A DNA stretch of 33,270 nucleotides. It comes from an uncultured Lachnospiraceae bacterium (GTDB lineage Bacteria; Bacillota; Clostridia; Lachnospirales; Lachnospiraceae). A program made the translations under genes and the position numbers. The notes below the pieces were generated by a model, which saw only the letters and a program-made list of their open reading frames with translations, was not told the origin of the DNA and ran no database searches. Below, in pieces: positions 8,714 to 24,916 of this stretch; position 1 is the first letter of the stretch, and each line of letters begins with the position of its first letter. The stretch is taken from positions 1 through 33,270 of the forward strand of contig CANQDS010000021.1 of assembly GCA_947593655.1 (NCBI GenBank), written 5' to 3'.

Positions 8714-10192
8714 ATGATTTTGGATGAAGACAGCCGGAACGAGATCTTTCAGGTTTCCATTCATCGTGCGCATGAACTGGCGCTCGTTTTTGACGAAACC
8801 GGATTGATCGTGTATGCGAACCAGACGGCGGAGGATAAGCTGGAATACGGTCTGGATATGTTAAGCAGCTACATATGGGAAGTGTTCCCCAGTGTATTTT
8901 CCAAGACAGGGGACGGATTCGCTTCCGAATGCGATTTCGACGGGACGGATCGCCAGCTGGACGCCTACCGGAAGAACCGCACCTGTTTTCCGGTCAATGC
9001 GCGCCTGCTGAAAGGAACCGGCGTGGTTCCGTTCTACTGCTGCATGGCGTTTGACGCGTCCGAGAGCAATATGCTCTGGAAGCAGGTCACGCAGATGAAA
9101 CAGGAAGTGGGAAGCGCCGACCAGATGAAGTCGGAATTTGTGGCGAGCGTGACGCACGAGCTGCGGACTCCGGTCAACGGAATCTTAGGGAACGCGCGGG
9201 AACTGGCGGGGCTTGAGAATGATCCGGAGAAATCCCGGCTGCTTTCGCTGATCCAGCGCGGCTGCGCGGACATGAACGCCATCATTAACAATATCTTAGA
9301 TTTTTCCAAGCTGGAATCCGGCAAGTTTCTGCTGGAGAAGCGCAGCTTTGATTTCCGGAGCATGATGGATTATGTGGCTTCGAACCACAGGAACAAGATC
9401 ACGGAGAAGGGGCTGGAGTTTACCATGACGATCTCCCCGGAGATCCCGGAATCCGTGATCGGAGATGAGCTGCGGATCGTGCAGATCTTAAACAATCTGC
9501 TTTCCAATGCATGTAAATTTACTTCGGTCGGGGGCATTATCCTGGAAGTTGTAAAGACCGCGCAGATCGGGGATCGGATCGAGCTGTTTTTCCTCGTGAT
9601 CGACACGGGGATCGGAATCGATAAGGCGGATCAGGATAAGCTCTTCCGCAGTTTTACCCAGGTGGACGCTTCCATTTCGCGCCGCTACGGCGGAACCGGG
9701 CTGGGGCTTAATATCAGCAAGCAGCTCGTGGAGATGATGGACGGCAATATCCACGTCGAGAGCGAGAAAGGGAAAGGGAGCATGTTTTCCTTCCACATCT
9801 GGGTGGAAGTGCCGGACGACCTCATAAAGGAAGCGCCGGCGAAGGCGGAGATCCCGAAGACCGCTCCGGTTCCGGAGGATGCGCACCCGCTGATCCAGAG
9901 CCTTTTGGATGTCAAGGACAACAGCAGGATCTGGGAATACGGCAGCGAGGAGAATCTGGAAGAGATCAATAAGAGCATGTCGAAGCTGATCCTCTGCGTG
10001 GAGATGGAGAACTGGGAGAAAGCGGAGACGTTTGCCAATACCATAAAGCAGCTGACGGAAGAGGCACCGCATGAGATCAAGAGCGCCGCGCTCCGTCTGA
10101 AGATGGCAGTACAGAAAGCGGATTATGATAAGGCGTCGGAAGCCCACCGGCGGATGCAGGAACTGACGAAGCCGGAAGAGAAAGGAAAATAA
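8714..10192 (+). CDS. Cytoplasmic PAS-domain histidine kinase with C-terminal helical domain
   Basis: Encodes 492 residues with no membrane segment. An N-terminal PAS-like sensor (about 10-120) is followed by a HisKA domain with phospho-His148 in VTHELRTPVNGI. The ATPase domain has N-box NNLLSNACKFT, G1 DTGIGI and G2 GGTGLGLNIS. The last ~120 residues form a helical segment. Its FANTIKQL ... KADYDKA pattern resembles an Hpt domain, but the phospho-His position reads Asn442. There is no receiver, so phosphate probably goes to a separate regulator; the REC-HD-GYP protein encoded next is the obvious candidate. It is the first gene of the locus, with GGAGAGATAG before the ATG. Confidence 0.88.
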   Translation: MILDEDSRNEIFQVSIHRAHELALVFDETGLIVYANQTAEDKLEYGLDMLSSYIWEVFPSVFSKTGDGFASECDFDGTDRQLDAYRKNRTCFPVNARLLKGTGVVPFYCCMAFDASESNMLWKQVTQMKQEVGSADQMKSEFVASVTHELRTPVNGILGNARELAGLENDPEKSRLLSLIQRGCADMNAIINNILDFSKLESGKFLLEKRSFDFRSMMDYVASNHRNKITEKGLEFTMTISPEIPESVIGDELRIVQILNNLLSNACKFTSVGGIILEVVKTAQIGDRIELFFLVIDTGIGIDKADQDKLFRSFTQVDASISRRYGGTGLGLNISKQLVEMMDGNIHVESEKGKGSMFSFHIWVEVPDDLIKEAPAKAEIPKTAPVPEDAHPLIQSLLDVKDNSRIWEYGSEENLEEINKSMSKLILCVEMENWEKAETFANTIKQLTEEAPHEIKSAALRLKMAVQKADYDKASEAHRRMQELTKPEEKGK

Positions 10193-10239
10193 AATAACCG
10201 GAAGTCCGTACAGGGCAAAAGACGGCGCAAGGAGGAATT

Positions 10240-11307
10240 ATGCCACAGGAAATGCAGGAAGTACCGCGGATTCTGATCGCAGATGATGTGGAGACGAATC
10301 GTTTCGTACTGAAAAATATCATATCGGATATGGGCTACCAGCCGATCTTAACGGAGAACGGGGAACAGGCGCTTCGGATCGTCAAGCGGTATCATTTATC
10401 GCTGATCATTCTGGATATTGCGATGCCGGTCATGGACGGTTATGAATTCTGCCGGCTGATCAAAGAGGATCCGACCACGAGGCAGATCCCGATCATCTTT
10501 ATTTCCGCCTTCGACGATCCTTCCGATGTCGTGAAGGGCTTCGAGCTGGGCGGCGAGGATTACATCACCAAGCCGTTTATCCCGGAAGTGGTCAAGGCCA
10601 GGGTGTCGCTGCACTTGAAGCTGGCCGAGACGAGCAAGAAGATGCAGGAGATGAACCGGAAATTACAGGTTTCCGTTACGGAACAGCTGCGTCAGGTGGA
10701 GCGGGAGAAAAAGAACGTGCTCTATGCGCTGATCCGCGTCGCGCGGGAGAATGCGCGCTACGACGAGGAGCATATGGAGCGGCTCAGCAGAAACTGCCGG
10801 ATCTTAGCGGAAGCGATGCAGCTTTCCCCGAAATATGACGCGCTGATCTCGGACAGTTATATCGATACCATCGAACTGGCGGCGCCGTTGTGCGATTTGG
10901 GGAATGTCGCGATCCCGACCGAGATCCTTCAGAAGAAGGAGAAGCTGACGCCGGAGGAACAGGCGAAGATGCGTACGCATACTTCGGTCGGCGCGCGGAT
11001 CCTGCGCGATATCGAAGATGCGGGAGATTACAACAGCTTTGTCCGCATGTCGCGCGACATCGCCCATTACCATCACGAGAACTGGGACGGAACCGGCTAT
11101 CCGAAAGGACTGAAAGGCGAGGAGATCCCGCTGTCCGCACAGATCGTTGCGGTTGTAGGCGCGTACTGCGCGCTCACGGAGGTGCGCAGCTACCGGAGGC
11201 AGTACAGCCGGGAAGAGGCGTTTGAGATCATGGAACAGGATGCGGGGAAGAAGTTCCATCCGGATATTTTTCAGATCCTTCGGAAAATCAACCGTCAGCT
11301 TTGCTGA
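10240..11307 (+). CDS. Response regulator with HD-GYP-type output domain
   Basis: Encodes 355 residues. An N-terminal receiver (about 10-130, phospho-Asp in ILDIAMPVMDGYEF) is linked by a coiled segment (130-170) to an HD-GYP domain. The GYP signature HHENWDGTGYP (278-288) and the metal-ligand region MRTHTSVGARIL (His247) are intact. The HD dyad, however, reads Cys218-Asp219 in LCDLGNVAIP. HD-GYP proteins hydrolyse c-di-GMP (or cGAMP) with a metal centre held by the HD residues, so activity may be lost or altered here. It probably receives phosphate from the kinase just upstream. The start is ATG 10240 behind AAGGAGGAATT. Confidence 0.88.
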   Translation: MPQEMQEVPRILIADDVETNRFVLKNIISDMGYQPILTENGEQALRIVKRYHLSLIILDIAMPVMDGYEFCRLIKEDPTTRQIPIIFISAFDDPSDVVKGFELGGEDYITKPFIPEVVKARVSLHLKLAETSKKMQEMNRKLQVSVTEQLRQVEREKKNVLYALIRVARENARYDEEHMERLSRNCRILAEAMQLSPKYDALISDSYIDTIELAAPLCDLGNVAIPTEILQKKEKLTPEEQAKMRTHTSVGARILRDIEDAGDYNSFVRMSRDIAHYHHENWDGTGYPKGLKGEEIPLSAQIVAVVGAYCALTEVRSYRRQYSREEAFEIMEQDAGKKFHPDIFQILRKINRQLC

Positions 11308-11330
11308 GACGGCGGAAGCAGGGGATTGTT

Positions 11331-12161
11331 ATGACAGGAATGACAATGACAGACAACGAGTTTTTCCGGATCTATACCTTTTTAAAGAACCGTTACGGGA
11401 TCAATATGGACAAGAAGAAAGAAATCGTAAGCGGAAGACTCGAGAATTATGTACGCGCGGGAGGCTGGCAGAATTATACCGAATATATGAACGCCGTGGA
11501 GAGCGATATCACCGGCGCTTTAGAGAAGAAGCTGGTCAGCCTGCTTTCAACGAACCATACTTTTTTCATGCGGGAATTCGAGCACTTTGATTTCCTGCGG
11601 CAGGAAGTGCTCCCGAAGCTCAAGCAGCAGGAGGCGCGGCGGAAGGATCTAAGCATCTGGTGCGGCGCGGCCTCTACCGGCGAGGAACCTTATATGCTGG
11701 CGATGCTTTTAATGGACTTTTTCGGGCTGGAGCATGACGCGTGGGATACCACGATCCTGGCCACGGATATTTCCGTGGAAGTGTTAAAACAGGCGACGGC
11801 GGGAATCTACAGCGAAGAGCGGATCGAAACGCTCCCGGATAACTGGAAGCGGCGGTATTTCCGCAAACTTCCGGGCGGGGACAGCTATCAGGTCTGCCGG
11901 GAGATTCGCGACGAAGTGCTGTTCCGCCAGTTTAACCTGATGGAACCGTTTCCGTTCCGGAGGAAGATGCATGTCGTGTTTCTGCGGAATGTCATGATCT
12001 ACTTTGACAAGAAGACGAAACAGGAACTGGTTCAGAAGGTTTATGATTTTATGAATCCGGGAGGATATTTATTTATCGGAAGAACAGAGACGATCGACCG
12101 GAGCGTGACGCCCTTTGAAATGGTCCAGCCGTCCATCTTCCGGAAGAAGGAAGGAATTTGA
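11331..12161 (+). CDS. cheR: Chemotaxis protein methyltransferase CheR
   Basis: Encodes 276 residues. The N-terminal all-helical CheR domain has TNHTFFMREFEHF, and the SAM-binding domain has IWCGAASTGEEPYMLA, followed by FRQFNLME and FLRNVMIYFD. The enzyme methylates glutamates on the transducer using SAM, for adaptation. The frame extends upstream to TTG 11301, which would overlap the previous gene. ATG 11331, with GGGG 6-9 nt upstream, gives a more usual N-terminus. It is followed 5 bases later by cheB, its adaptation partner. Confidence 0.94.
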   Translation: MTGMTMTDNEFFRIYTFLKNRYGINMDKKKEIVSGRLENYVRAGGWQNYTEYMNAVESDITGALEKKLVSLLSTNHTFFMREFEHFDFLRQEVLPKLKQQEARRKDLSIWCGAASTGEEPYMLAMLLMDFFGLEHDAWDTTILATDISVEVLKQATAGIYSEERIETLPDNWKRRYFRKLPGGDSYQVCREIRDEVLFRQFNLMEPFPFRRKMHVVFLRNVMIYFDKKTKQELVQKVYDFMNPGGYLFIGRTETIDRSVTPFEMVQPSIFRKKEGI

Positions 12162-12166
12162 CCGTT

Positions 12167-13195
12167 ATGCATCGGATACGAGTTTTGATAGTGGAAGATT
12201 CCCTGGTGTTTCGGGAGCTTCTGGTGCAGAATCTGAACAGGGATCCGGAGATCGAGGTGGTGGCGACTGCGCGGGATCCGTATGAAGCAAGGGATGCGAT
12301 CATCAAGTACAAGCCGGATGTGATGACTCTGGATATCGAACTTCCGCGGATGAGCGGACTGGAATTCCTGCGGAAGCTGATGCCGCAGTACCCGATGCCC
12401 GTCGTCATGATCAGCGCCTTAAGCACCAAAGTATTTGATGCGTTGAGTTCGGGAGCCGTGGATTTTGTCGCAAAACCGCTTGTGACGGACCGGAGCCGGC
12501 TGGCGGAATTTATCAGCACCGAGCTTCCGAACAAGATCAAAACGGCGTCGGTCGCAAGGCTCGGGAATGTCAGGCGGCGCGCGGAAGATGTGAAGATGTC
12601 CCCGGTTTTGAAAGGCGGGAAGAAGACGATCATAGCGATCGGCGCCTCTACCGGCGGAACCGAGGCGATCGCGGCGCTGGCGCAGGAATTCGGTCCGGAT
12701 GTTCCGGGAATCGTGGTGGTGCAGCACATGCCCGCCGGTTTTACGAAAATGTATGCGGAGCGCCTGAATGAGAAATGCCGCGTGACGGTGAAGGAAGCGG
12801 TAAGCGGAGATACGGTTCTGCCCGGCCGGATGCTGATCGCGCCGGGCGGCGAGGAGCACATGGAGCTTGTGATGACGGGCGGGGAATATCAGGTAAGATG
12901 CCGGAAAGCCCCCAAAGTCAACGGGCACTGTCCGTCCGTGGACGTTTTGTTTGATTCGGTCGCCCGGACGGCCGGGAAGAATGCGTTAGGCATTATCTTA
13001 ACCGGAATGGGAGGCGACGGGGCGAAGGGGCTTCTTGCCATGAGACAGGCCGGAGCGCGGACGATCGGACAGGACGAATCGAGCTGCGTTGTATACGGCA
13101 TGCCGAAGGTGGCCTATGAGCTTGGAGCGGTGGAATACCAGGAAAAGCTTTCGGATATTGTAAGGAAAACATATGCGTTATTAAATATGATGTAA
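12167..13195 (+). CDS. cheB: Protein-glutamate methylesterase CheB
   Basis: Encodes 342 residues. A receiver with phospho-Asp56 (LDIELPRMSG) is followed by the methylesterase domain. The Ser-His-Asp triad is visible as GASTGGTEA (Ser161), VVQHMPAGFT and the Asp in GMGGDGAKG. CheB removes methyl groups from, and can deamidate, transducer receptors when phosphorylated by CheA. A TTG at 12158 is in frame but sits only 2 nt from the AAGGA ribosome site and overlaps the cheR stop, so ATG 12167 is preferred. Confidence 0.95.
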   Translation: MHRIRVLIVEDSLVFRELLVQNLNRDPEIEVVATARDPYEARDAIIKYKPDVMTLDIELPRMSGLEFLRKLMPQYPMPVVMISALSTKVFDALSSGAVDFVAKPLVTDRSRLAEFISTELPNKIKTASVARLGNVRRRAEDVKMSPVLKGGKKTIIAIGASTGGTEAIAALAQEFGPDVPGIVVVQHMPAGFTKMYAERLNEKCRVTVKEAVSGDTVLPGRMLIAPGGEEHMELVMTGGEYQVRCRKAPKVNGHCPSVDVLFDSVARTAGKNALGIILTGMGGDGAKGLLAMRQAGARTIGQDESSCVVYGMPKVAYELGAVEYQEKLSDIVRKTYALLNMM

Positions 13196-13207
13196 GGAGA
13201 TCAGAGT

Positions 13208-13600
13208 ATGAGAATCTTATTGGCGGAGGACGATTACGTAACAAGAAAATTTATGACCAACTTTCTTTCCAAGTACGGGGAATGCGACGTGACGGTGGAC
13301 GGAATGGAGGCCGTGGATGCGTTTATGATGGCGTTGGAAGACGGGGAGCCTTATGATCTGGTCTGCCTGGACGTGATGATGCCGGTCATGGACGGCTATC
13401 AGGCGCTGGTCGGGATCCGCAACCTGGAGAAGGATTACAACATCCAGGAGCAGGATGCGGCGAAAGTCATCATGACGACGGCGCTCAACGATGAGAAGAA
13501 TGTAAAGATGGCGTTTGACCTCGGATGCACGATCTATTCCGGAAAGCCGATCGACAAGGAGCGGTTTGAGCAGGCGCTGAAGAAATTAAAATTAGTATAG
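13208..13600 (+). CDS. Single-domain CheY-like response regulator
   Basis: Encodes 130 residues, only a receiver domain. The acidic pair is in LLAEDD, the phospho-Asp is residue 55 in LDVMMPVMDG, the switch Thr is in MTTALND and the Lys in SGKPIDK. It lies between cheB and cheA, so it is the likely soluble phosphate acceptor of CheA. Whether it binds a flagellar motor, a pilus motor or another partner cannot be read from sequence, and no flagellar genes are nearby. AAGGAG lies before ATG 13208. Confidence 0.9.
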   Translation: MRILLAEDDYVTRKFMTNFLSKYGECDVTVDGMEAVDAFMMALEDGEPYDLVCLDVMMPVMDGYQALVGIRNLEKDYNIQEQDAAKVIMTTALNDEKNVKMAFDLGCTIYSGKPIDKERFEQALKKLKLV

Positions 13601-13613
13601 AAAGGAGCGCACA

Positions 13614-15761
13614 ATGGCAGAAGATTATATCACTGGAGATATGCTGGACGTCTATTTGTACGAGAACCAGCAGCTGCTGGAAAATCTGCAGGAGATTGTG
13701 CTCGACCAGAAAGACGCGGAGTGCTTTGATGAAGACAGCATCAATGAGATTTTCCGTACCATGCATACGATCAAAGGCTCGTCCGGGATCATGATGTTTG
13801 ACGAGATCACGGCAGTCGCGCATAAGCTGGAGGACGTATTCTTTTTCTTAAGGGAATCCCATCCGGACAATGTTCCGCATCTGGAACTGGTGGAATATGT
13901 GCTCCGGGTTGCAGATTTTATCACGGGCGAAATGGATAAGCTCTCGGACGGGGAAGCCGCCGACGGCGACGGATCCGAGCTTCTGGCGGAACTGGATCAG
14001 TTTTTAACGAAGATCAAGGGGCCGGCCGATCCGAAAGAGAAGAAAGCTCCCGCGAAGGAGAACGTGCATGTGGAACCCACGCAGTTTTACATAGCGCCGG
14101 CGGCCGCCCATGAAGAGCATTATTTTAAGATCTACCTGACGTATTCGCCGGGGATCCAGATGGCGAACATGCACGCCTACAAGACGGTCTACGCCTTAAA
14201 GGAGATCGCGGAGGATATGATGTATTCCCCGGAGGATATCTTAACGAACGAGGACAGCGGCAATGAGATCCTCGAGAACGGTTTTAAGATCCTTCTTAAG
14301 ACACAGTCCTCTGAAGAGAAGCTGCACGAAATCGTGCGGCCGGGGTATGAACTGGAGAAAGTGGATATCTACGCCTGCAGCGAAAAGGATTACCTGCAGG
14401 GCTTTGACAGCATCGGTTCGGAGATCCGCATCGATCTGGACGCCAGCGTAGAGGAGATCGAAGACCGCGCCAAGCAGAAACAGGCGGGCAGCAGACCGCC
14501 GGCAAAACCGCCGGCACCGGGCGATTTCGTTATTGCCTCCAAGGAACCGGGGCGGCCGAAGAAGCTGGCGAAAGACAAGCCGAAGAAATCCGAGAAAGCG
14601 GCGTTTATCAGCGTGGACATCGGAAAGATGGATCTTCTGATGGATCTGATCGGGGAACTGGTCATCTCCCAGTCGGTCGTGCTGCAGAACCCGGATTTAA
14701 AAGTGCCGGGGCTAAACCTCGATAACTTCCACAAGGCCGCGGGGCAGATGAGCAAGATCTCGACGGATCTGCAGAACGTGATCATGAGTATGCGCATGGT
14801 TCCGCTGACGAATACGTTCCAGAAGATGAACCGGATCGTGTTCGACGTTTCCCGCAAGCTCGGCAAGGAGATCGAGTTTGAGATGGTCGGGGAGCATACG
14901 GAGGTGGATAAGAACATCATCGAGCACATCTCCGATCCGCTCATGCATCTGGTGCGGAACGCGGTTGACCACGGGATCGAAAGCAAGGAAGAGCGGCTGG
15001 CCAGCGGCAAGACCGAGAAAGGCAAAGTCACGCTTTCCGCGCGGACGGAATCCGGCAAGGTCTGGATCGGCGTACAGGATAACGGCAAGGGGCTGGACCG
15101 CGAGAAGATTTTGGCCAAGGCAAGGAAGCAGGGGCTTTTGGAGCCGGGCAAGCCGGAAAGCGCCTACAGCGATAAAGAAGTGTACCAGTTTATCACGCTG
15201 CCGGGCTTTTCCACCAACGAGCAGGTCACGGAGTATTCCGGCCGGGGCGTCGGCATGGACGTTGTGGTTTCCAACATTCAGGCGATCGGCGGAACGCTCG
15301 AGATCGAGAGCACGCCGGGACAGGGCAGCCTGATGAATTTAAAGATCCCGCTGACGCTCGCCATTATCGACGGCATCGTGATGGAAGTCGGCGCTTCTTC
15401 CTTTGTTATCGAAACCGGCGTGGTCAAGGAGTTTGTCAGCGTGACGGAGAAGAAGATGATCCATGAGCCGAACGGAGAAGAATCCGTGATGATCCGCGGC
15501 GAATGTTATCCGGTCCTGCGTCTGGGGCGCTGGTATCATCTGCGGAATTACAACGCCAAAGTGGAAGACGGCATGATGGTCATCATCGAAGTGGAAAAGA
15601 AATCGCTCTGCCTGTTCGTAGACAGGCTGATCGGAAAACAGGAAATTGTTGTAAAACCGATTCCGGATTATGTGAAGAAAGTAAAAGGACTGTCCGGATG
15701 CACCCAGCTCGGGGACGGAAGCATCGCCCTGATTTTGGATGCGGCGGGGCTGATCGAGTGA
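13614..15761 (+). CDS. cheA: Chemotaxis histidine kinase CheA
   Basis: Encodes 715 residues with the standard domain order. An Hpt (P1) domain has phospho-His51 in MHTIKGSSG. A P2-type regulator-binding domain (about 160-260) contains MANMHAYKTVYALKEI, followed by a Pro/Lys-rich linker. The P3 dimerisation helices begin near KMDLLMDLIGELVISQS. The P4 ATPase has LVRNAVDHGIES, DNGKGLD and GRGVGMD, and a CheW-like P5 domain forms the C-terminus. It autophosphorylates under transducer control and passes phosphate to the CheY-like protein and CheB. AAAGGAG lies 6-8 nt before the ATG. Confidence 0.96.
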   Translation: MAEDYITGDMLDVYLYENQQLLENLQEIVLDQKDAECFDEDSINEIFRTMHTIKGSSGIMMFDEITAVAHKLEDVFFFLRESHPDNVPHLELVEYVLRVADFITGEMDKLSDGEAADGDGSELLAELDQFLTKIKGPADPKEKKAPAKENVHVEPTQFYIAPAAAHEEHYFKIYLTYSPGIQMANMHAYKTVYALKEIAEDMMYSPEDILTNEDSGNEILENGFKILLKTQSSEEKLHEIVRPGYELEKVDIYACSEKDYLQGFDSIGSEIRIDLDASVEEIEDRAKQKQAGSRPPAKPPAPGDFVIASKEPGRPKKLAKDKPKKSEKAAFISVDIGKMDLLMDLIGELVISQSVVLQNPDLKVPGLNLDNFHKAAGQMSKISTDLQNVIMSMRMVPLTNTFQKMNRIVFDVSRKLGKEIEFEMVGEHTEVDKNIIEHISDPLMHLVRNAVDHGIESKEERLASGKTEKGKVTLSARTESGKVWIGVQDNGKGLDREKILAKARKQGLLEPGKPESAYSDKEVYQFITLPGFSTNEQVTEYSGRGVGMDVVVSNIQAIGGTLEIESTPGQGSLMNLKIPLTLAIIDGIVMEVGASSFVIETGVVKEFVSVTEKKMIHEPNGEESVMIRGECYPVLRLGRWYHLRNYNAKVEDGMMVIIEVEKKSLCLFVDRLIGKQEIVVKPIPDYVKKVKGLSGCTQLGDGSIALILDAAGLIE

Positions 15762-15792
15762 ATCGGCGGATAAACGAAGAAAGGAAAGGACT

Positions 15793-16296
15793 ATGAGTGA
15801 GTTTGACACGCAAAAGGGCAAATACGTGACATTCCAGTCCGGAAATGAATTTTTCGGATTGAAAATACAGTACGTCAACGAGATCATCGTTTTTCAGGAG
15901 ATCACGGAGATCCCGGAGAGCGAGGATTACATCAAGGGCTTGATCAATCTGCGCGGAAAGATCATACCGGTCATCGATGTGCGGATCCGGTTTAAACAGG
16001 AGCCGTTCGAGTACAATGACAGGACCTGTATCATCGTCATCAATGTCAACAATCTGGTCGTCGGGCTGATCGTGGAAAAGATCGCGGAAGTGGTGGAGAT
16101 CCAGGAACAGAACATCCTGCCGTCTCCGTCGATCGCCAGAGGGGACAAAGTTCAGAATAAATATGTTTATGCCATCGGAAAAGTCGGGGACGAGGTAAAG
16201 CTGCTGCTGGATCCGGAACGGCTGTTGAACGATGAGGATTTATCTTTGATTGAGCAGGCGAATGAGGGGAATCTGCTGGAAGGAGAAGGAGAATAA
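15793..16296 (+). CDS. cheW: Chemotaxis coupling protein CheW
   Basis: Encodes 167 residues, one CheW SH3-like domain ([21 protein letters not shown], then [16 protein letters not shown] and the [12 protein letters not shown] strand). It links the transducer signalling tip to the P5 domain of CheA. It lies between cheA and the transducer gene, which begins only 4 bases after its stop codon. AAAGGAAAGGACT precedes the ATG. Confidence 0.95.
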
Positions 16297-16300
16297 CGTC

Positions 16301-17662
16301 ATGAAGAAGAAAATGAAAGTAGTTACCAAATTAATTATTGCATTTGCGGTCCTGGGATTTCTGGTAGTGCTGAACCTGATCCTGGGGTATACTTCCGCAA
16401 GGGGTGTTTTAACGGCGAACAATCAGGAGAAATATTTACAGTCTTATCTGATCGTGACGATCGTTCTGGCGGTTTTGGCGTCCGGATTTATCGTATGGCT
16501 GGCAGTCAACGTCGTCAGCACGATCCATCGTTCGATCTCGCAGCTGACCGAAGTGGCCAAACAGATCTCGATGGGCAAAGTGGACGTGGATCTGGTACAG
16601 CAGAGCAATGACGAGTTCGGCGCGTTGATCGGGGATTATCAGCAGGTCGTTGACAATATCCGCTATCAGGCGAACGTAGCGGAGCAGGTATCGAGCGGAA
16701 ACTTAACGCTTGACGTTATCCCGCGTTCGGAAGAGGACGTTTTGGGAACTTCCTTAAAGAAACTGGTAAAACGCAACCGCCATGCGCTTTCCGGGATCAG
16801 CGACGCCGCTTATCAGGTGACGACGAGTTCCTCGGAAGTAGCGAGCGCGAGCGAGGCGCTGGCACAGGGCTCGACCGAGCAGGCGAGCGCGATCGAAGAG
16901 ATCACCGCATCGATCGGCGATATCGCCGAAAAGACCAAGCAGAACGCTTCGGAAGCGGATTCCGCGGCAGGGCTGGTCGAGCTTGCGATTGAAGACGTGA
17001 AAAAAGGCAACGAACAGATGGAAGATATGATGGTGGCGATGCAGGATATCAATTCGTCATCGGAGAGCATTTCCAAGATCATTAAAGTGATCGACGATAT
17101 CGCGTTCCAGACCAATATCCTTGCGCTGAACGCGGCGGTAGAGGCGGCGCGCGCGGGCGAGGCCGGAAAAGGGTTTGCGGTCGTTGCGGAAGAAGTCAGA
17201 AACCTTGCGGCCAAGAGCGCTTCGGCGGCTTCGGAAACGGCGGAGCTGATCGAGGATTCCATCCGGAAGGTGGAGATCGGTTCCAAGATCGCGGACGAGA
17301 CGGCAAGGGCGTTAGAAGAGATCACAGAGGCGGTTCAGAAGAGCGAAACGATCATTTCCGAGATCGCGGAGGCTTCCAATTATCAGGCGACGGCGATCAC
17401 CCAGATCAATCAGGCGATCGGTCAGGTATCGCAGGTCGTCCAGAACAATTCCGCAACCAGCGAACAGTGCGCGGCGGCCAGCATCGAGCTGTCGAATCAG
17501 GCAACCCGCATGAGGGAACTGCTTTCCGTATTCCGGCTGGGCAATTATGTACCGGAGCTGACTTCGGGCACGGACGCTTCTTCCGCATCCGGCGCGGTCA
17601 GCCCTGCGGAGAATGACAATGAATCCATTATCTCGTTAGGGAACGGATTCGGCAAATACTAA
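16301..17662 (+). CDS. Methyl-accepting chemotaxis transducer lacking an extracellular ligand domain
   Basis: Encodes 453 residues. Two membrane helices (about 11-30 and 50-69) are separated by only ~19 residues. A HAMP domain follows, then a long coiled-coil signalling domain whose tip ([20 protein letters not shown], from about 267) is highly conserved. Alanine- and Glu/Gln-rich helices carry likely methylation sites. With no periplasmic sensor domain it may sense membrane state, cytoplasmic conditions or a partner protein; the two membrane kinases downstream are candidates. A longer frame opens at 16250, but ATG 16301 is preceded by AAGGAGAAGGAGA. The C-terminus lacks a CheR-docking NWETF-type pentapeptide. 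Confidence 0.92.
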
Positions 17663-17679
17663 AAGCGGATCATTACAGG

Positions 17680-17708
17680 AGGCGTACCGCAGACGTGCAG
17701 GTACGCCT
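17680..17708 (+). terminator. Hairpin between transducer and hybrid kinase genes (possible attenuator)
   Basis: A perfect 9-bp stem (AGGCGTACC 17680-17688 with GGTACGCCT 17700-17708) encloses an 11-nt loop. It is followed by GTTGTATC, a poor T-tract. It lies 18 bases after the transducer stop. This suggests partial termination within the locus rather than a full stop. Confidence 0.5.
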
Positions 17709-17730
17709 GTTGTATCATGAACGGTCGGAT

Positions 17731-17735
17731 GGAGG
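17731..17735 (+). promoter_or_regulatory. Ribosome site supporting a TTG start of the hybrid kinase
   Basis: GGAGG lies 8 nt before TTG 17744. The earlier in-frame ATGs at 17717 and 17729 have no Shine-Dalgarno match. Confidence 0.6.
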
Positions 17736-17743
17736 TCGGCAGT

Positions 17744-20503
17744 TTGGATTATTTAGAAGGAAACCCGAGAAAACAAAGAAATACGGAGCGTTATATCCTG
17801 ATCTTTTACAGCATATACCATTTTTCCATGTTTCTGGTTTCGATCAATTCCCATTGGGAGACATGGACATCGGTCTTTATGGCGGCGGCTTTTACTTCGA
17901 GCTGGGTGGTGTATCTGGGAAAATACCGTGACTATCATTTCCGCGCATTCTACACGGCGGCGATGGTACAGGTCACGCTTATTTTGTATACCATCCACTT
18001 AAGCGATATCTTTACCGCATTTGCGACGATCCTCGCGCTGGTGGTGCTGATGGGGGTATACGAGATCCCGGATCTTTTGATCACTCCGTTTCTGTCGTCG
18101 ACGTTTATCCTGTTTTTCCACGGCGTGATCTTAAAAACCATACAGTTTACTTCGGTGAACGCGGCCGTTTCCCTGCTGCTCCAGTGCGCCAATATCTACG
18201 GAGTCGAGTATATCGTCTATTTCTGGGTGAAGAAGCGCAGCGACGCCAATCTCCAGCTGATCAAGGTCATCCGGGAGTTAAAAGAGACGGAGCGCAGCAA
18301 GGACGACTTCCTTGCCAATGTCAGCCATGAGATCCGGACTCCGATCAATACGATCTCCGGAATGAGCGAACTGATCCTGCAGGAGGACGAACTTGACAAG
18401 ATTCAGGAGGACGCTTTAAGCATTCAGGCGGCCGGCCGCAACCTGATGTCGGTTGTCAGCGATATTCTGGATTTCTCAGAATTACAGTCCGGGAAAATGG
18501 AGATCGAGGAGGAAGCCTATAACATCACCTCCACGATCAACGATATCATTAATATGACGATCGCCAGAAGGCGGCAGAAGAACATCGAGCTGGCGATCAA
18601 CTGCGATCCGCAGATCCCGTGCGCCCTTTTGGGCGACGAAAAGAAGATCCGCCGCGTCGTTATGAACCTCGTCAACAATGCGCTGAAATTTACCGAGGAG
18701 GGCTGCGTCACGATCACGATCGAGTCGCGGCGCGAGTCTTACGGGATGAACCTGATCATTATCGTGAAGGATACCGGGATCGGCATGAAGGAAGAGAGCT
18801 TAGAGCGGCTCTTTACCAGCTTCAATCAGGTGGATACCAAGCGGAACCGCCAGGAGGGCGGGATCGGCTTAGGGCTTGCGATCTCCCGGCTGATCGTGGA
18901 GAAAATGGGCGGCGTGATCTCCGTCCGCAGCAAATACGGCAAAGGCAGCTCCATCAAAGTCGTGATCCCGCAGAAGATCTTAGACGAGCGCCCGATCGCC
19001 TGCGTCAAGAACCGCGAGGGGATCTATATTGCGGCGTATTTCAATATGGAACACTATGAAATGGCGGAGATCCGCGACGAATATATGAGTATGCTCCGCA
19101 AGATGATCGGCCAGCTCGGCGTGCGCTGCTGCATCTGCCAGAACCTGGCGGAAGTCAAGCGCAGGGCGCAGCGGGAATCGTTTTCGCATGTTTTCATCAG
19201 TCCGGGCGGCTATCGGGAGGATCAGGCGTATTTTGACCAGCTTGCGCTGACCACGAAACTGTACATGATCATGGATCCGCCGGAAGAGAAGAATATCCGC
19301 AATCCGAACATTGGCAAGATCTACAAGCCGTTTTACATCCTTCCGGTCGTTTCCGTGTTGAACGGGCGGACGGAGAAAAAGACGAGCGTTCCGATGGTGC
19401 GTGCGAACCGCTTTATTGCGCCGGAAGCGCATGTGCTTGTCGTTGACGACAATTTAATGAACATCCGGGTGATCGAGGGGCTGCTGCAGCGCTACCAGAT
19501 CCAGGTGACGGAAGCCATGAGCGGCCGGGAAGCGCTGGATAAGATCGAAATGATGCATTACGATTTCGTGTTTATGGACCATATGATGCCGGAAATGGAC
19601 GGCGTGGAAACTTTCCACCGGATCCGCAAGAAAGTCGGCACTTATTACCGCAGAGTCCCGATCATCGCGCTGACCGCCAACGCGATCGCGGGCGCACGGG
19701 AGAAGCTGCTGGCGGAAGGCTTTACGGATTTCGTGGAGAAACCGGTCGAATCCTCCGTGCTGGAGCGCGTGCTTAGGCGCAATATCGCAGAGGATAAGAT
19801 CATTGAACTGGAAGAGGACAATGCACTCGCAGAGGCCGCGCAGGAGCGGATCCCGCAGGAGCCGGAGCCGTCCGCGGAATTAGCGCTCGGGGATCTGGAT
19901 ATCTCTAAAGGGCTTCTCTACTGCGGCGGCAGGGATCAGTACATGCAGATCTTAAAGAACTATGCGCTGCAGGGTGAGAAGAACTGGCTCCCGGCGGCGG
20001 AGGCGTTTGAGAAGAAAGACTGGAAGAATTATACGATCAACGTCCATGCGGTCAAGAGCTCGATGCTGACGATCGGGGCGGTCACTCTGTCGGAAATGGC
20101 AAAGAAGCTCGAACAGGCGGGAAAAGAGAACAATATCAGCTATATCATGGAAAACCATGAAGCGATGATGGACGAATACCGGCGCGTGATCCGGCTGCTG
20201 CAGACGAATCTGCACGTTTCCCCGGAACAAAATCAAGAAATTTCCCAGCAGGATATTCCGGAGATTTCCGACGAAGCGTTTGAACAGAAGGCGATCGAAC
20301 TCGAGAACGCCATGTATGAACTGGACGGCGGGAGGATGCAGGAGCTGGTTGCGGAGCTTCAGAGGTTCCGCTACCACGGGACGGTTCTGGAGCAGACGTT
20401 AGAGCCGGTGCAGAAGAAGATCGAAATGACGGATTATATGTCGGCCGTGGAATACGTGCTGAGGATGAAAGACAAACTCAAAAGGAATCAGGAGGAAGAG
20501 TAA
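17744..20503 (+). CDS. Membrane hybrid histidine kinase: HK, pseudo-receiver, receiver, Hpt
   Basis: Encodes 919 residues from TTG 17744; ATG 17717 would add nine. Several hydrophobic helices (about 15-175) form the membrane sensor. HisKA has phospho-His195 in VSHEIRTPINTI. The ATPase has NLVNNALKFT, DTGIGM and GGIGLGLAIS. A receiver-sized segment without a phospho-Asp (about 425-555, ending IYKPFYILPVVSVL) follows. A true receiver has Asp612 in FMDHMMPEMDG, and an Hpt domain has His768 in NVHAVKSSMLTIGA. It can run a full His-Asp-His relay; the final Asp acceptor is not identified. The C-terminal ~110 residues after Hpt are helical and unassigned. It is followed 3 bases later by the DegV-fused kinase. 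Confidence 0.9.
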   Translation: MDYLEGNPRKQRNTERYILIFYSIYHFSMFLVSINSHWETWTSVFMAAAFTSSWVVYLGKYRDYHFRAFYTAAMVQVTLILYTIHLSDIFTAFATILALVVLMGVYEIPDLLITPFLSSTFILFFHGVILKTIQFTSVNAAVSLLLQCANIYGVEYIVYFWVKKRSDANLQLIKVIRELKETERSKDDFLANVSHEIRTPINTISGMSELILQEDELDKIQEDALSIQAAGRNLMSVVSDILDFSELQSGKMEIEEEAYNITSTINDIINMTIARRRQKNIELAINCDPQIPCALLGDEKKIRRVVMNLVNNALKFTEEGCVTITIESRRESYGMNLIIIVKDTGIGMKEESLERLFTSFNQVDTKRNRQEGGIGLGLAISRLIVEKMGGVISVRSKYGKGSSIKVVIPQKILDERPIACVKNREGIYIAAYFNMEHYEMAEIRDEYMSMLRKMIGQLGVRCCICQNLAEVKRRAQRESFSHVFISPGGYREDQAYFDQLALTTKLYMIMDPPEEKNIRNPNIGKIYKPFYILPVVSVLNGRTEKKTSVPMVRANRFIAPEAHVLVVDDNLMNIRVIEGLLQRYQIQVTEAMSGREALDKIEMMHYDFVFMDHMMPEMDGVETFHRIRKKVGTYYRRVPIIALTANAIAGAREKLLAEGFTDFVEKPVESSVLERVLRRNIAEDKIIELEEDNALAEAAQERIPQEPEPSAELALGDLDISKGLLYCGGRDQYMQILKNYALQGEKNWLPAAEAFEKKDWKNYTINVHAVKSSMLTIGAVTLSEMAKKLEQAGKENNISYIMENHEAMMDEYRRVIRLLQTNLHVSPEQNQEISQQDIPEISDEAFEQKAIELENAMYELDGGRMQELVAELQRFRYHGTVLEQTLEPVQKKIEMTDYMSAVEYVLRMKDKLKRNQEEE

Positions 20504-20506
20504 GCG

Positions 20507-23191
20507 ATGTTCAAAAAGCTTTATGATAAAGTTTTTTTTGAAGAGATGGATATCCGGGAGCGGATGTTCCGGATGGTCATGATCGTCGGATGCATCATTT
20601 CCTTTGCGGGGATCCTCGAAAGCTTCCTCGTTCAGCGGGACAGCGGGATCCAGCTTCCGATGCTTGTGCTGTTTGTCATCATGCTTCTGGCGATGGTCGT
20701 CACGTTCCGCTACCGCAGGTTCATTCTGGCGGCGTGGCTGGTGGGGCTCGGCCTTACGGTGATCTACTTCCCGGAAATGTTCTTTCTGGGCGGCGGCTTA
20801 AACAGCGGCGCGGCGGTCTGGTTCGTACTGGCGCTGTTTTACGGGTTCATGATGTTTTCCGGAAAGCAGCTTCTGGTATTCCTTGTCATCACGATGACAG
20901 CGGATGCGGCCACCTACCTGTATGCGTATTTCCATCCGGAGGTTCTTTCGGACATGGAGTCCGTTTCCGCAAGCTATCTGGATTCGATCTTTGCCGTATA
21001 TCTGGTCGGGATCATGGTCGGGCTGATCTTAAAGTTCCAGATGTATCTTTATGAAAAAGAAAGCGCTGTCGTTCATTCCCAGAAGAATGAACTGGAAAAA
21101 GTCGGAAAATCAAAGAATAACTTTTTTGCCAGCATGAGCCACGAGATCCGCACGCCGATCAATACGATCATCGGCTTAGACGAGATGATCCTGCGCAGCG
21201 ATACGAGCCCGGAGGTCCGGGAATACGCCCAGAGCATCCAGAGCGCCGGGAAAATGCTGCTGAGTCTGGTAAACGACATCATGGATCTCTCGCGGATCGA
21301 AATGCGCCGCCTCGAGATCCTTCCGGGCGAATATAAGACGAAAGAACTGTTCGGGAATCTGATCGATATGATCGGTGTCCGGATGAAAGAAAAGCAGCTG
21401 GATTTTTATGTGGATATCGACAGCCAGCTCCCGAGCGTGCTTTTCGGGGACGCGCGCAGGATCGAGCAGATCCTGATCAATATTTTAACGAACGCCGTCA
21501 AGTATACGCAGGAAGGTTCCGTGACGCTGCAGGCGCATATGGAGTCCCGGCAGGGAAACAAGGTGTGCATGAAGATCAGCGTGCGGGATACCGGCATCGG
21601 CATCCGGAAAGAAGATATGGAATACCTGTTTGATTCGTTCCGCCGCATCGACGAGAAGCGGATCCAGAACGTGGAAGGCAGCGGGCTCGGCCTTGCGATC
21701 ACCAAGCAGCTGGTTACGATGATGGGCGGCGAGATCACCGTGGACAGCATCTATACCAAGGGTTCGAATTTTACGGTGACGCTGGAACAGATCGTCGTCG
21801 ATCCGGAACCGATCGGGGAATCCGGGATCTTCGACCGGGAAGAAGGCGAAGGCGCGGAGGCGTACCATCAGATCTTCGAAGCGCCGGAAGCGCGGATCCT
21901 GATCGTGGACGACAATGCGATGAACGCTATGGTGGCGAGGCAGCTCTTGTCGGCGACCAAAATGCAGATCGATACGGCGTCCAGCGGGAAGGAATGCCTC
22001 GAGAAGACGAAAGAAAAATTTTACCATGTGATCCTGATGGATTACATCATGCCGGAAATGGACGGCGCGGAAACGCTAAAGGAGATCCGCAATCAGGAGA
22101 ACGGACTCTGCCGGGATTCCTATGTGATCGTGCTTACGGCCAATACGATGGACGATGCGCGGCGCATTTATGAGGAGAACGGGTTTGACGGTTACTTTGA
22201 GAAGCCGATCCGCATTGATTCGCTGGAAAAGGAGCTGCTGCGGTTCCTTCCGCCGGATATTGTGGAGTACCGCAGGGCGCAGAAGAATGATTCCGGCTTA
22301 GATGGGGTGGAGATCATGCCGGTCGTCCACCGGAAGCGCAAGCGCGTGATGATCACGACCGACTGCATCTGCGACCTTCCGGCGGATGTTCAGGAGAAAT
22401 ACCACATCAGGCTGATGTACCTGTATGTCCGGACGGACAAGGGGCGCTTTGCGGATACGATCGAAATCGATTCGGATCATCTGGCGCAGTATGTTTCTTC
22501 CAGAGGCGGCTACAGCACGGTAACGATCGAAGACGCCAGAGTGGAGGATTACGAGCAGTTCTTTGCGGATTCCCTCGATGAGGCCGAGGAAGTGATCCAC
22601 ATTACGACCGCATCCGGCGTCGGAGGCTGCTACAAGGAAGCGTGCGCGGCTTCCAAGGGTTTTGACCATGTGCATGTGATCGATTCGGGCTTTATTGCCG
22701 GCGGAGAAGGGCTTGTGGTGCTGTATGCGGCGCAGCTGGCGAACGAGTGGAAATCCGCGGAGGAGATCTGCCGGAAAGTAGAGCAGATCCGGGAAAGGGT
22801 GGAATCCAGATTCCTGATTCCGGAAGTCAATTACATCTCCCGGAGAGGGTATGTCCATCCGGCGGCTGCACAGGTCGTCCAGACGCTCCAGCTCCATCCG
22901 GTTCTGCGGACGCGCCAGAGCCGCTTAAAAGTGGTCGGGGTGCGCAGCGGCAATCTGGAAAATGCCTGGAAGCGGTTTATCCGTTCCACGCTGCGGCGGA
23001 AGCGGAAGATCGAGCCGGGGCTCGTCATTGTTTCCTATGCGGGCTGCAGCGTGCGCCAGCAGGAACTGCTGAAAAAAGAGATCTTAAAACGGATCCCGTT
23101 CGAGCATGTGATCATGCACAAGACTTCTTTTATCAATTCCTGTGTATCGGGATTGGAAGGAATTGGGATTTCTTACTATACAAGAAACTGA
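20507..23191 (+). CDS. Membrane hybrid histidine kinase fused to a C-terminal DegV domain
   Basis: Encodes 894 residues. About six membrane helices (20-185) come first. HisKA has phospho-His212 (MSHEIRTPINTI). The ATPase has NILTNAVKYT, DTGIGI and GSGLGLAI. A receiver has Asp512 in LMDYIMPEMDG. From about residue 614 to the end is a DegV-like domain: VMITTDCICDLPADV, HVIDSGFIAGGEGLVVLY, then PEVNYISRRGYVHPAAAQVV and PVLRTRQSRLKVVGVRSG. DegV/FakB proteins bind fatty acids. Several usual polar positions differ: SGTY reads GGCY, the DSxxxS Ser is Ala, and the terminal HxGPG motif is not visible. GGAGGAAGAG precedes ATG 20507. The ligand and the direction of signalling are unknown. Confidence 0.88.
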   Translation: MFKKLYDKVFFEEMDIRERMFRMVMIVGCIISFAGILESFLVQRDSGIQLPMLVLFVIMLLAMVVTFRYRRFILAAWLVGLGLTVIYFPEMFFLGGGLNSGAAVWFVLALFYGFMMFSGKQLLVFLVITMTADAATYLYAYFHPEVLSDMESVSASYLDSIFAVYLVGIMVGLILKFQMYLYEKESAVVHSQKNELEKVGKSKNNFFASMSHEIRTPINTIIGLDEMILRSDTSPEVREYAQSIQSAGKMLLSLVNDIMDLSRIEMRRLEILPGEYKTKELFGNLIDMIGVRMKEKQLDFYVDIDSQLPSVLFGDARRIEQILINILTNAVKYTQEGSVTLQAHMESRQGNKVCMKISVRDTGIGIRKEDMEYLFDSFRRIDEKRIQNVEGSGLGLAITKQLVTMMGGEITVDSIYTKGSNFTVTLEQIVVDPEPIGESGIFDREEGEGAEAYHQIFEAPEARILIVDDNAMNAMVARQLLSATKMQIDTASSGKECLEKTKEKFYHVILMDYIMPEMDGAETLKEIRNQENGLCRDSYVIVLTANTMDDARRIYEENGFDGYFEKPIRIDSLEKELLRFLPPDIVEYRRAQKNDSGLDGVEIMPVVHRKRKRVMITTDCICDLPADVQEKYHIRLMYLYVRTDKGRFADTIEIDSDHLAQYVSSRGGYSTVTIEDARVEDYEQFFADSLDEAEEVIHITTASGVGGCYKEACAASKGFDHVHVIDSGFIAGGEGLVVLYAAQLANEWKSAEEICRKVEQIRERVESRFLIPEVNYISRRGYVHPAAAQVVQTLQLHPVLRTRQSRLKVVGVRSGNLENAWKRFIRSTLRRKRKIEPGLVIVSYAGCSVRQQELLKKEILKRIPFEHVIMHKTSFINSCVSGLEGIGISYYTRN

Positions 23192-23239
23192 CCGCGCAAT
23201 GTTTTTGAGCGGTACGATATCAGGGGAAGGAGAATTTTT

Positions 23240-24916
23240 ATGGAGAGGCTGAGCCAACATTACTCATTTGATACGATATGCGAGATCATCCAGCAGTTTG
23301 CTTCCTGCATGGATGATTACCCGTTTGTTTATGATCTGCAGGAGGACCGTTATTTTCTTTCGGAACTGGCGTCAGAGCGTTTTGCACTGGAGCAGACCCT
23401 GTTTTCCGATGTGGAAACGCGGCTGATGGAACTGGTGTATCCGGACGACTGGGAGACGCTCGCGAAGGATCTGCGGGCGCTCCAGAAGGGCGAGAAGCAG
23501 GATCACAATCTTTCCTACCGCTGGATGGGAAAAGACCACCGGCCGATCTGGATCAACTGCCGGGGGCGCGTGCTGAAGGACGAAAACGGCCGGCCGAAAT
23601 ACCTGCTTGGCTGCATAAACGAGATCGGCATCAAACCGATCGCGGACAACGTCAGCGGAATGCTGGAAAGCCGCGCAATCCAGGATGTGCTGACCGGATA
23701 TTACGACAACTGGGAAAACGGCTATATCCTGCGGTTCGGGATTGACGATTTTAAAGACATCAACGAGAAATTCGGCATGGAATACGGCGATTATGTGCTG
23801 CACGGCGTGGCAAACTGCATCCTCGATTCCCTGCTGCCGGGACAGCGGGCGTACCGCGTAGTCGCGGACGAGTTTCTGGTTATGGATTTTATGTACGGCA
23901 GCATTGAAGATGCGCAGGAACTTTACCGGAGAGTGCGCACGGCCGTGGATAAGTTTATCGAATCGAACCAGTATGAGGCGGTCTACACCATATCGGGCGG
24001 CGTGCTGACCTGCATGGACGTGATCGAACCGACTTATTCCGAGATCATGAAGATCTCCCAGTTTGCGTTAAGCGAGGCCAAGGGACGGGGCAAAAACCAG
24101 CTTTATATCTTCCACACCGAGGATTACCAGAAATTCCTGCGCAAGCGCGCGCTGCTTCGGGAGCTGCGTCTGTCGATCGCCGGAGGGTTCGAAGGCTTCC
24201 GCCTGTTTTTCCAGCCGATCGTAAGCGCGTCCAAAGGAGAGATCTATGCGTCGGAAGCGCTGCTGCGTTTCCAGATGCGGAACGGAGAGAGCGTATCGCC
24301 GATGGAATTTATCCCGATCCTCGAAGAAAGCGGCCTGATCATTCCGATCGGGAAGTGGATCCTTGAGAAAGCGATCGATATGTGCATCACCTGTCAGGCG
24401 AAGCTGCCGGATTTCCGCGTCAGCATCAACCTGTCCTACATCCAGATCTTAAAAAGCCCGATCATCGACGAGATCTATCAGCATGTCATCGATTCGGGGC
24501 TGCATCCGTACAGCCTGATCGTGGAACTGACCGAGAGCGGCTATCTGGAAAATACGCCGTCCGTGAAGCGCGTATGGGATAATTTAAAGAAATTCGGCGT
24601 TTCGATCGCCATTGACGACTTCGGCACCGGCTATTCCAATCTGCAGAGCATCGGGAACATGATGCCGAACATCGTGAAGCTGGACCGCGGATTTACGGTA
24701 AAAGCGCTGCAGAACCGTTATGAAAACCAGCTGATGTCGCATATCATAGAAATGGTGCACAGCCTCGACTTAAAGATCTGCGTGGAGGGGATCGAGACGA
24801 AGGAAGAACTGGAAAAGATCCGCGAGCTTTCCCCGGACTATATCCAGGGCTTCTATTTCGGGCGCCCGTGCGCGAAGGAAGAGTTCGTGGAGAAATTCTT
24901 GGGGATGAACCTGTAG
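23240..24916 (+). CDS. PAS - degenerate GGDEF - EAL protein, probable c-di-GMP phosphodiesterase
   Basis: Encodes 558 residues. An N-terminal PAS-like region (about 25-135, with VYPDDW) is followed by a GGDEF domain whose signature reads VVADEF (207-212), so it should not make c-di-GMP. The EAL domain keeps its catalytic features: SEALLRF (338-344), SINLSYIQI, VELTESG, IDDFGTGYSN (458-467), IVKLDRGF, CVEGIETKEE and IQGFYFGRP. It should hydrolyse c-di-GMP to pGpG, perhaps with the GGDEF part as a GTP-sensing regulatory domain. It is the last gene of the signalling locus, and its start ATG has AAGGAGA upstream. Confidence 0.92.
   Translation: MERLSQHYSFDTICEIIQQFASCMDDYPFVYDLQEDRYFLSELASERFALEQTLFSDVETRLMELVYPDDWETLAKDLRALQKGEKQDHNLSYRWMGKDHRPIWINCRGRVLKDENGRPKYLLGCINEIGIKPIADNVSGMLESRAIQDVLTGYYDNWENGYILRFGIDDFKDINEKFGMEYGDYVLHGVANCILDSLLPGQRAYRVVADEFLVMDFMYGSIEDAQELYRRVRTAVDKFIESNQYEAVYTISGGVLTCMDVIEPTYSEIMKISQFALSEAKGRGKNQLYIFHTEDYQKFLRKRALLRELRLSIAGGFEGFRLFFQPIVSASKGEIYASEALLRFQMRNGESVSPMEFIPILEESGLIIPIGKWILEKAIDMCITCQAKLPDFRVSINLSYIQILKSPIIDEIYQHVIDSGLHPYSLIVELTESGYLENTPSVKRVWDNLKKFGVSIAIDDFGTGYSNLQSIGNMMPNIVKLDRGFTVKALQNRYENQLMSHIIEMVHSLDLKICVEGIETKEELEKIRELSPDYIQGFYFGRPCAKEEFVEKFLGMNL

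Follow-up and report, generated by a model that had tools for sequence, protein, structure and literature searches.

The 33,270-nucleotide stretch analysed here, which we call the window (positions 1 to 33,270 of the forward strand of contig CANQDS010000021.1, assembly GCA_947593655.1, from an uncultured Lachnospiraceae bacterium), encodes at 20507..23191 (+) a membrane hybrid histidine kinase of 894 residues with a C-terminal DegV domain, DegV-HK, and at 17717..20503 (+), ending 3 bp before it, a partner hybrid kinase of 928 residues, HK2. DegV-HK is read in a single frame from an ATG at 20507 to a stop codon that ends at 23191, and comprises, all on the forward strand, an N-terminal region with about six transmembrane (TM) helices by hydropathy (20507..21097), HisKA with the phospho-acceptor His212 (21113..21301), HATPase_c with its N, G1 and G2 boxes (21446..21787), a receiver (REC) with Asp512 (21896..22234) and a DegV domain of the EDD-fold family (residues 614-892; 22346..23182), in which six functional residues of FakB1 are replaced. 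HK2 has, by Pfam and alignment, the order TM, HisKA, HATPase, intervening region, REC and Hpt. Its intervening region, between HATPase and REC (18974..19426, +), is the signature of the HK2 type and is REC-like by length and position only; it is followed by a Pfam receiver with Asp621 (19433..19768, +) and by an Hpt domain with His777 (19940..20203, +) that scores 20.5 bits in Pfam, below the cut-off of 24.6 bits, homologues being above it.

By domain tests, DegV-HK is a DegV-family protein joined to a hybrid histidine kinase. Pfam places HisKA at residues 203-265 (4e-19), HATPase_c at 314-427 (1e-25) and Response_reg at 464-576 (3e-23), each above its curated cut-off, and DegV (PF02645) at 614-892 (1.2e-37; 130 bits against a cut-off of 27, profile positions 2-279 of 280). 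The NCBIfam DegV domain TIGR00762 matches at 142.7 bits (cut-off 99.7), and no other family reached its cut-off among 25 of the 137 NCBIfam matches. In the PDB, the C-terminal part comes closest to DegV/FakB proteins (2dt8, 1.7e-19, and S. aureus FakB chains). These results bear out the original prediction, made from the bare sequence, of an uninterrupted 894-residue frame with six hydrophobic helices, HisKA (His212), ATPase and REC (Asp512), followed by some 280 residues of DegV. A crude hydropathy scan with overlapping windows gave about six hydrophobic segments before residue 180, a region with no Pfam match at E 0.01. Weak matches of MASE11/MASE7 type appeared for the TM parts of single relatives, and a Pfam identity for these parts was rejected: 11 families gave one to three weak matches each among 39 members, and none in DegV-HK of the window.

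Distinct DegV-kinase fusions were then taken together with their neighbouring DNA, 64 in all and no pair more than 85% identical, in a first set of 47 loci (length filter above 400 residues) and a second set (above 600 residues); frames were called from the first start codon, which makes N-termini and gaps approximate and may have let spurious frames into the neighbour counts. An intact HK2 lies directly upstream on the same strand in 56 of the 64 loci, with a gap between HK2 and DegV-HK of -80 to +33 bp across the 56 pairs and a 4-bp overlap in 20 of them. As for the eight exceptions, L010, L016 and L080 are cut by a contig end with HK2-type domains still visible, L070, L075 and L092 have an interrupted frame in one of the two genes, L068 is unclear, and L091 is an HK2-like half joined to DegV. 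The HK2-like half in this last protein (L091:4790-7378) has HATPase, is without a recognisable HisKA or REC, and runs directly into DegV. When the HK2 intervening region was used to scan 30 genomes of the genus, it gave 19 matches in 14 genomes, 13 of which have fused DegV; 18 of the 19 matches fall in genomes with fused DegV and the other in G024 (58% complete), where HK2 runs off the contig end, a co-inheritance count that amounts to no probability since genomes drawn from a single genus are not independent of each other. Among nine further stretches from the genus, outside the 64, L121 to L124 have both genes intact; in L117 and L119 a kinase gene follows HK2 and is truncated by the end of the contig, ahead of the place where DegV would lie. 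Both partners retain their signalling residues: every one of the 39 full-length HK2s in the first set has the HisKA motif, and 46 of the 47 first-set fusions (all but L091) keep the His, the N, G1 and G2 boxes and the REC Asp. The REC pattern was missed in six of the 39 HK2s, four of which have the Asp in a variant motif, the other two being L078 and L090. The possibility that one kinase of the pair is catalytically dead was not supported, the His, ATPase boxes and Asp being kept in both. On gene order and domain content DegV-HK is one half of a conserved two-kinase module, and its earlier treatment as a single unit has to be given up, given the 56 paired loci; the original prediction named neither HK2 nor the Che and cyclic di-GMP genes nearby.

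The single Hpt domain points to how the two kinases are probably connected. Among the 56 pairs it lies on HK2 in 46, at the C-terminal end of DegV-HK in seven (L076, L086, L087, L088, L093, L101 and L103) and in the next gene in two (L020 and L085), with none seen in one (L019); in none of the 56 is it on both kinases. All 36 aligned Hpt domains of the first set (31 on HK2, five on the DegV kinase) have the phospho-acceptor His; a stricter Hpt pattern missed L054, L055, L057, L078 and L090, whose His was seen by profile alignment. In L092, outside the 56 pairs, our own Hpt profile matches HK2 and that of Pfam does not. One Hpt per pair, varying in place and never on both kinases, makes it very likely that DegV-HK and HK2 share one phosphorelay.

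Among the DegV proteins, which are widespread in Firmicutes, the FakB members serve as known carriers for FakA. For S. aureus FakB1, PMC8892158 places Thr62, Ser95, Ser171 and His270 around the carboxylate and assigns Arg173 to catalysis and Arg205 to FakA binding. All six are replaced in the window protein (Thr62 by Ile674, Ser95 by Gly706, Ser171 by Arg780, Arg173 by Tyr782, Arg205 by Ser814 and His270 by Val880), the alignment of the Arg205 column being uncertain by one, with an Arg in a neighbouring column in the window and in 13 of the 64 in all. The changes at Ser95 and His270 are among those named in the original prediction, and its suggestion that something other than an ordinary fatty acid may be the ligand agrees with the altered carboxylate and FakA-binding residues across the family: His270 is kept in one of the 64 fusions (Asn in 58) and Arg205 in two. 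In nine stand-alone DegV rows, Ser95 and Arg173 are kept in all nine and Arg205 in eight. A stand-alone DegV gene lying directly after the DegV kinase in L019 (L019:9313-10173) keeps Arg173, Arg205 and His270. By the residues compared, DegV-HK is not a FakB. Its DegV domain nevertheless appears to be maintained under purifying selection, because nonsynonymous divergence (dN) from L016 is 0.21 and synonymous divergence (dS) 1.63, the latter near saturation.

A tree of 75 DegV domains, rooted at midpoint for drawing only, put all 64 fused domains on one side of a branch with support 99/98, and the fused clade together with L096 was parted from the ten other stand-alone rows, FakB1 included, with support 100/99. 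L096, the row nearest to the fused clade, is a separate DegV of 283 residues (L096:6691-7542) whose gene overlaps that of HK2 by 4 bp, a possible ancestor-like arrangement. As this separate DegV adjoins the fused clade, it suggests an order of events in which DegV first stood beside HK2 and was later joined to the second kinase. Three fused kinases (L098, L099 and L100) come from a genus outside the family of the window; their nesting in the tree among sequences of that family suggests horizontal transfer.

With moderate confidence, we favour a reading in which the two membrane hybrid kinases form one His-Asp-His-Asp relay, with Hpt normally on HK2 and DegV serving either to sense a ligand or to gate. 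Two inputs are envisaged, the TM parts and the DegV domain, the latter being the second, cytosolic one or a gate; DegV would bind a hydrophobic ligand, lipid-like or otherwise, or, at the least, gate the adjacent REC or kinase. Phosphate from both kinases would pass via the shared Hpt to a response regulator, which in many relatives may be an adjacent REC-HD-GYP or REC-GGDEF protein and in the window could be the REC-HD-GYP, CheY-like or CheB receiver of the same gene run, and the output would be altered cyclic di-GMP (c-di-GMP) and chemosensory signalling. Several points weigh against this reading. Relay, ligand sensing and phenotype are predictions from sequence. The distance matrices speak for the pairing, since over 39 pairs those of DegV and HK2 correlate at r 0.77 (at most 0.23 after shuffling), and with the kinase core of the DegV protein included the values are r 0.72 to 0.77 (at most 0.29 after shuffling), but this correlation may partly reflect a shared species tree. 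L019 is without Hpt in either kinase or a direct neighbour, and has an Hpt-like match three genes before the DegV kinase. By manual count, a gene with a c-di-GMP domain stands within two genes in only 30 of the 64 loci, and in the window the second gene before DegV-HK (position -2) is a chemoreceptor gene of the MCP type, leaving several candidate target regulators. Lastly, in the window clade (18 proteins: those of 15 loci with MCP at -2, plus L010, L016 and L059) each protein keeps at most one of the six FakB1 residues, and ten, that of the window included, keep none; the pocket in this clade may for that reason be dead.

That depletion lends itself to another explanation, unlikely in our view and still the most substantial of the rivals, by which DegV would bind no ligand and would act as a dimerisation or docking module fixing DegV-HK to HK2 or to the target protein. 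In the window clade Ser95 is kept in none of the 18 (Gly in 16) and Arg173 in three (Tyr in 12), while Thr62 has become Ser in four and residues without a hydroxyl in the others. The split DegV beside HK2 in L096 and the HK2-like half fused to DegV in L091 would also suggest a physical association with HK2. The 46 fusions outside the window clade tell against docking as a general role: Thr or Ser is found at position 62 in 41, Ser95 in 29 and Asn at the His270 position in 43, which is what a maintained pocket would be expected to show.

DegV stands after REC, in the position of an output domain, and the genome of the window has one FakA above cut-off, so that REC phosphorylation might instead control fatty-acid loading of DegV and its later handover to FakA. 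We regard this as improbable. Arg205 is all but absent from the fusions, Arg173 is kept in 27 of the 64, and the position of Trp180, in the membrane-inserting helix, is polar in 49; fused DegVs are unlikely FakA partners because the FakA-binding Arg is lost and the His changed. Five stand-alone DegVs would moreover be available for that role among the eight DegV genes of this genome, the other three lying within frames of about 900 residues. Of the two roles offered in the original prediction, a relay made responsive to a fatty acid may hold, and control of acyl binding by phosphorylation is made unlikely only as far as delivery to FakA goes. It is a shade less probable still that the two kinases are mere neighbours serving separate pathways: HisKA, HATPase and REC are complete in both, which counts in favour of it, but one Hpt per pair that changes place, co-inheritance and the 4-bp overlaps speak for a joint system.

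The fusion itself is widespread in the family. A scan of genome contigs gave five relatives matching across nearly the whole length of DegV-HK and three weak matches; the record titles of the five name Lachnospiraceae (two), Acetatifactor and Pseudobutyrivibrio (both Lachnospiraceae) and Oscillospiraceae. By manual count of rows, a fused frame of at least 850 residues occurs in 12 of 30 genomes of the genus, to which G001 adds one cut by a contig edge, and at least 34 of 200 genomes of the family, the own one included, have a DegV match in a frame of at least 700 residues among the matches listed. Fused or partial matches in the family outside the 64 include G197:C69, G222:C39, G070:C32, G192:C97, G203:C69 and G186:C61, and L016 and G029:C118 are apparently one record. 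Two wider surveys scored at most six candidates per genome, so that second copies may be missed. Across 391 genomes of the class, frames of at least 700 residues matching the fused profile were found in the family of the window and in one genus (three genomes) of another family, all fused matches scoring at least 319 bits and the best stand-alone DegV 258 bits; across 398 genomes of the phylum, such frames were found in the family of the window only. An assembly or frameshift artefact, one of the conditions under which the original prediction was to fail, has next to no chance of explaining DegV-HK; nothing was found in its favour, and it was rejected because L016 is a full-length homologue, 73% identical, whose match runs through the REC/DegV junction, and 62 further distinct fusions bring the fused proteins to 64.

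Around the pair, the window has a co-directional run from 8714 to 24916, flanked on both sides by mostly housekeeping genes. Its first gene encodes a histidine kinase with HisKA and HATPase (8714..10192, +), and is followed by genes for a REC-HD-GYP response regulator (10240..11307, +; Pfam HD_5, with the HHE-DG-GYP motif present), CheR (11301..12161, +), CheB with REC and methylesterase (12158..13195, +), a stand-alone, CheY-like receiver (13208..13600, +), CheA (13614..15761, +), CheW (15793..16296, +) and a HAMP-MCP chemoreceptor (16250..17662, +), the last three assigned by Pfam; HK2 and DegV-HK come next, and a Pfam-assigned PAS-GGDEF-EAL protein (23240..24916, +) lies downstream of the pair. 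The REC-HD-GYP gene is the eighth before DegV-HK. In the first set, HD-GYP or GGDEF domains are found in 16 of 35 genes of at least 150 residues at -2, and elsewhere in none of 30 at -3, three of 43 at +1, two of 43 at +2 and three of 108 beyond three genes. Of the 13 HD genes at -2, 12 have the GYP motif, as does the REC-HD gene of the window. A Pfam scan of ten chosen upstream neighbours identified seven REC regulators that carry HD, GGDEF or the two together and, besides these, one MCP, one REC-AraC regulator and one unrelated reductoisomerase. MCP genes were counted manually at -2 in 15 of the 64 loci. A solute-binding protein family 3 gene stands right after the DegV kinase in L009 (8424-9260), L067 (5087-5887), L113, L114, L122 (4929-5747) and L123 (5049-5882), and a chemoreceptor gene then follows it in L009 and L123.

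Of the known systems, RpfC/RpfG of the rpfGHC operon, which serves diffusible signal factor (DSF) fatty-acid signalling in Xanthomonas, offers the nearest parallel in layout. There, according to PMC4504480, a fatty-acid signal acts on a hybrid kinase that has five TM helices, REC and Hpt, and this in turn on a REC-HD-GYP protein. Relatives of the window locus resemble it in having a multi-TM hybrid kinase with Hpt beside REC-HD-GYP and a predicted c-di-GMP output, whereas a fatty-acid-type signal is a feature of Rpf that would only by analogy extend to DegV-HK; the DegV system differs in having two hybrid kinases, with the lipid-binding fold on the partner kinase. As the likeness is one of architecture and neighbourhood, we do not class DegV-HK/HK2 as an Rpf system. 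With the FakB/DegV proteins (S. aureus FakB1, PDB 5woo), DegV-HK shares almost the entire Pfam and NCBIfam domain, and differs in being fused to a kinase, in the loss of Arg205 and His270 in nearly all fusions and in belonging to the separate clade. Hybrid kinases of the BarA/TorS type have the kinase-REC(-Hpt) core in common with it and, to our knowledge, no DegV domain; TorS and BarA are the best NCBIfam kinase profiles for DegV-HK, both far below their curated cut-offs. RcsC and RcsD are likewise two adjacent hybrid-type membrane kinases with one shared Hpt. The kinase part of RcsD is degenerate, in contrast to DegV-HK and HK2, which both keep the His, ATPase boxes and Asp.

Among the literature matches, seen as titles and abstract openings from a scope that left out most subscription journals and preprints, there was no description of a DegV-kinase system; PMC12688256 mentions an ordinary DegV gene within a deleted region. 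As a tentative proposal, made with less than even confidence, a FakB-type lipid-binding fold would have been recruited as an intracellular ligand sensor in a widespread, undescribed two-kinase relay of Lachnospiraceae that sets c-di-GMP, and in the window clade this relay would be wired to a full chemosensory set, with the pocket remade for a ligand other than free fatty acid. We know of no earlier signalling use of the DegV fold, and a DegV clade kept within a phosphorelay would be the first. Two genes, one Hpt and a C-terminal domain of about 280 residues make a unit that lends itself to direct testing. Lachnospiraceae thus appear, from the comparisons made here, to have made a signalling part out of a bacterial lipid-carrier fold, and if its ligand is a lipid, these gut bacteria would have an Rpf-like link by which fatty acids or the state of the membrane could act on c-di-GMP and motility.

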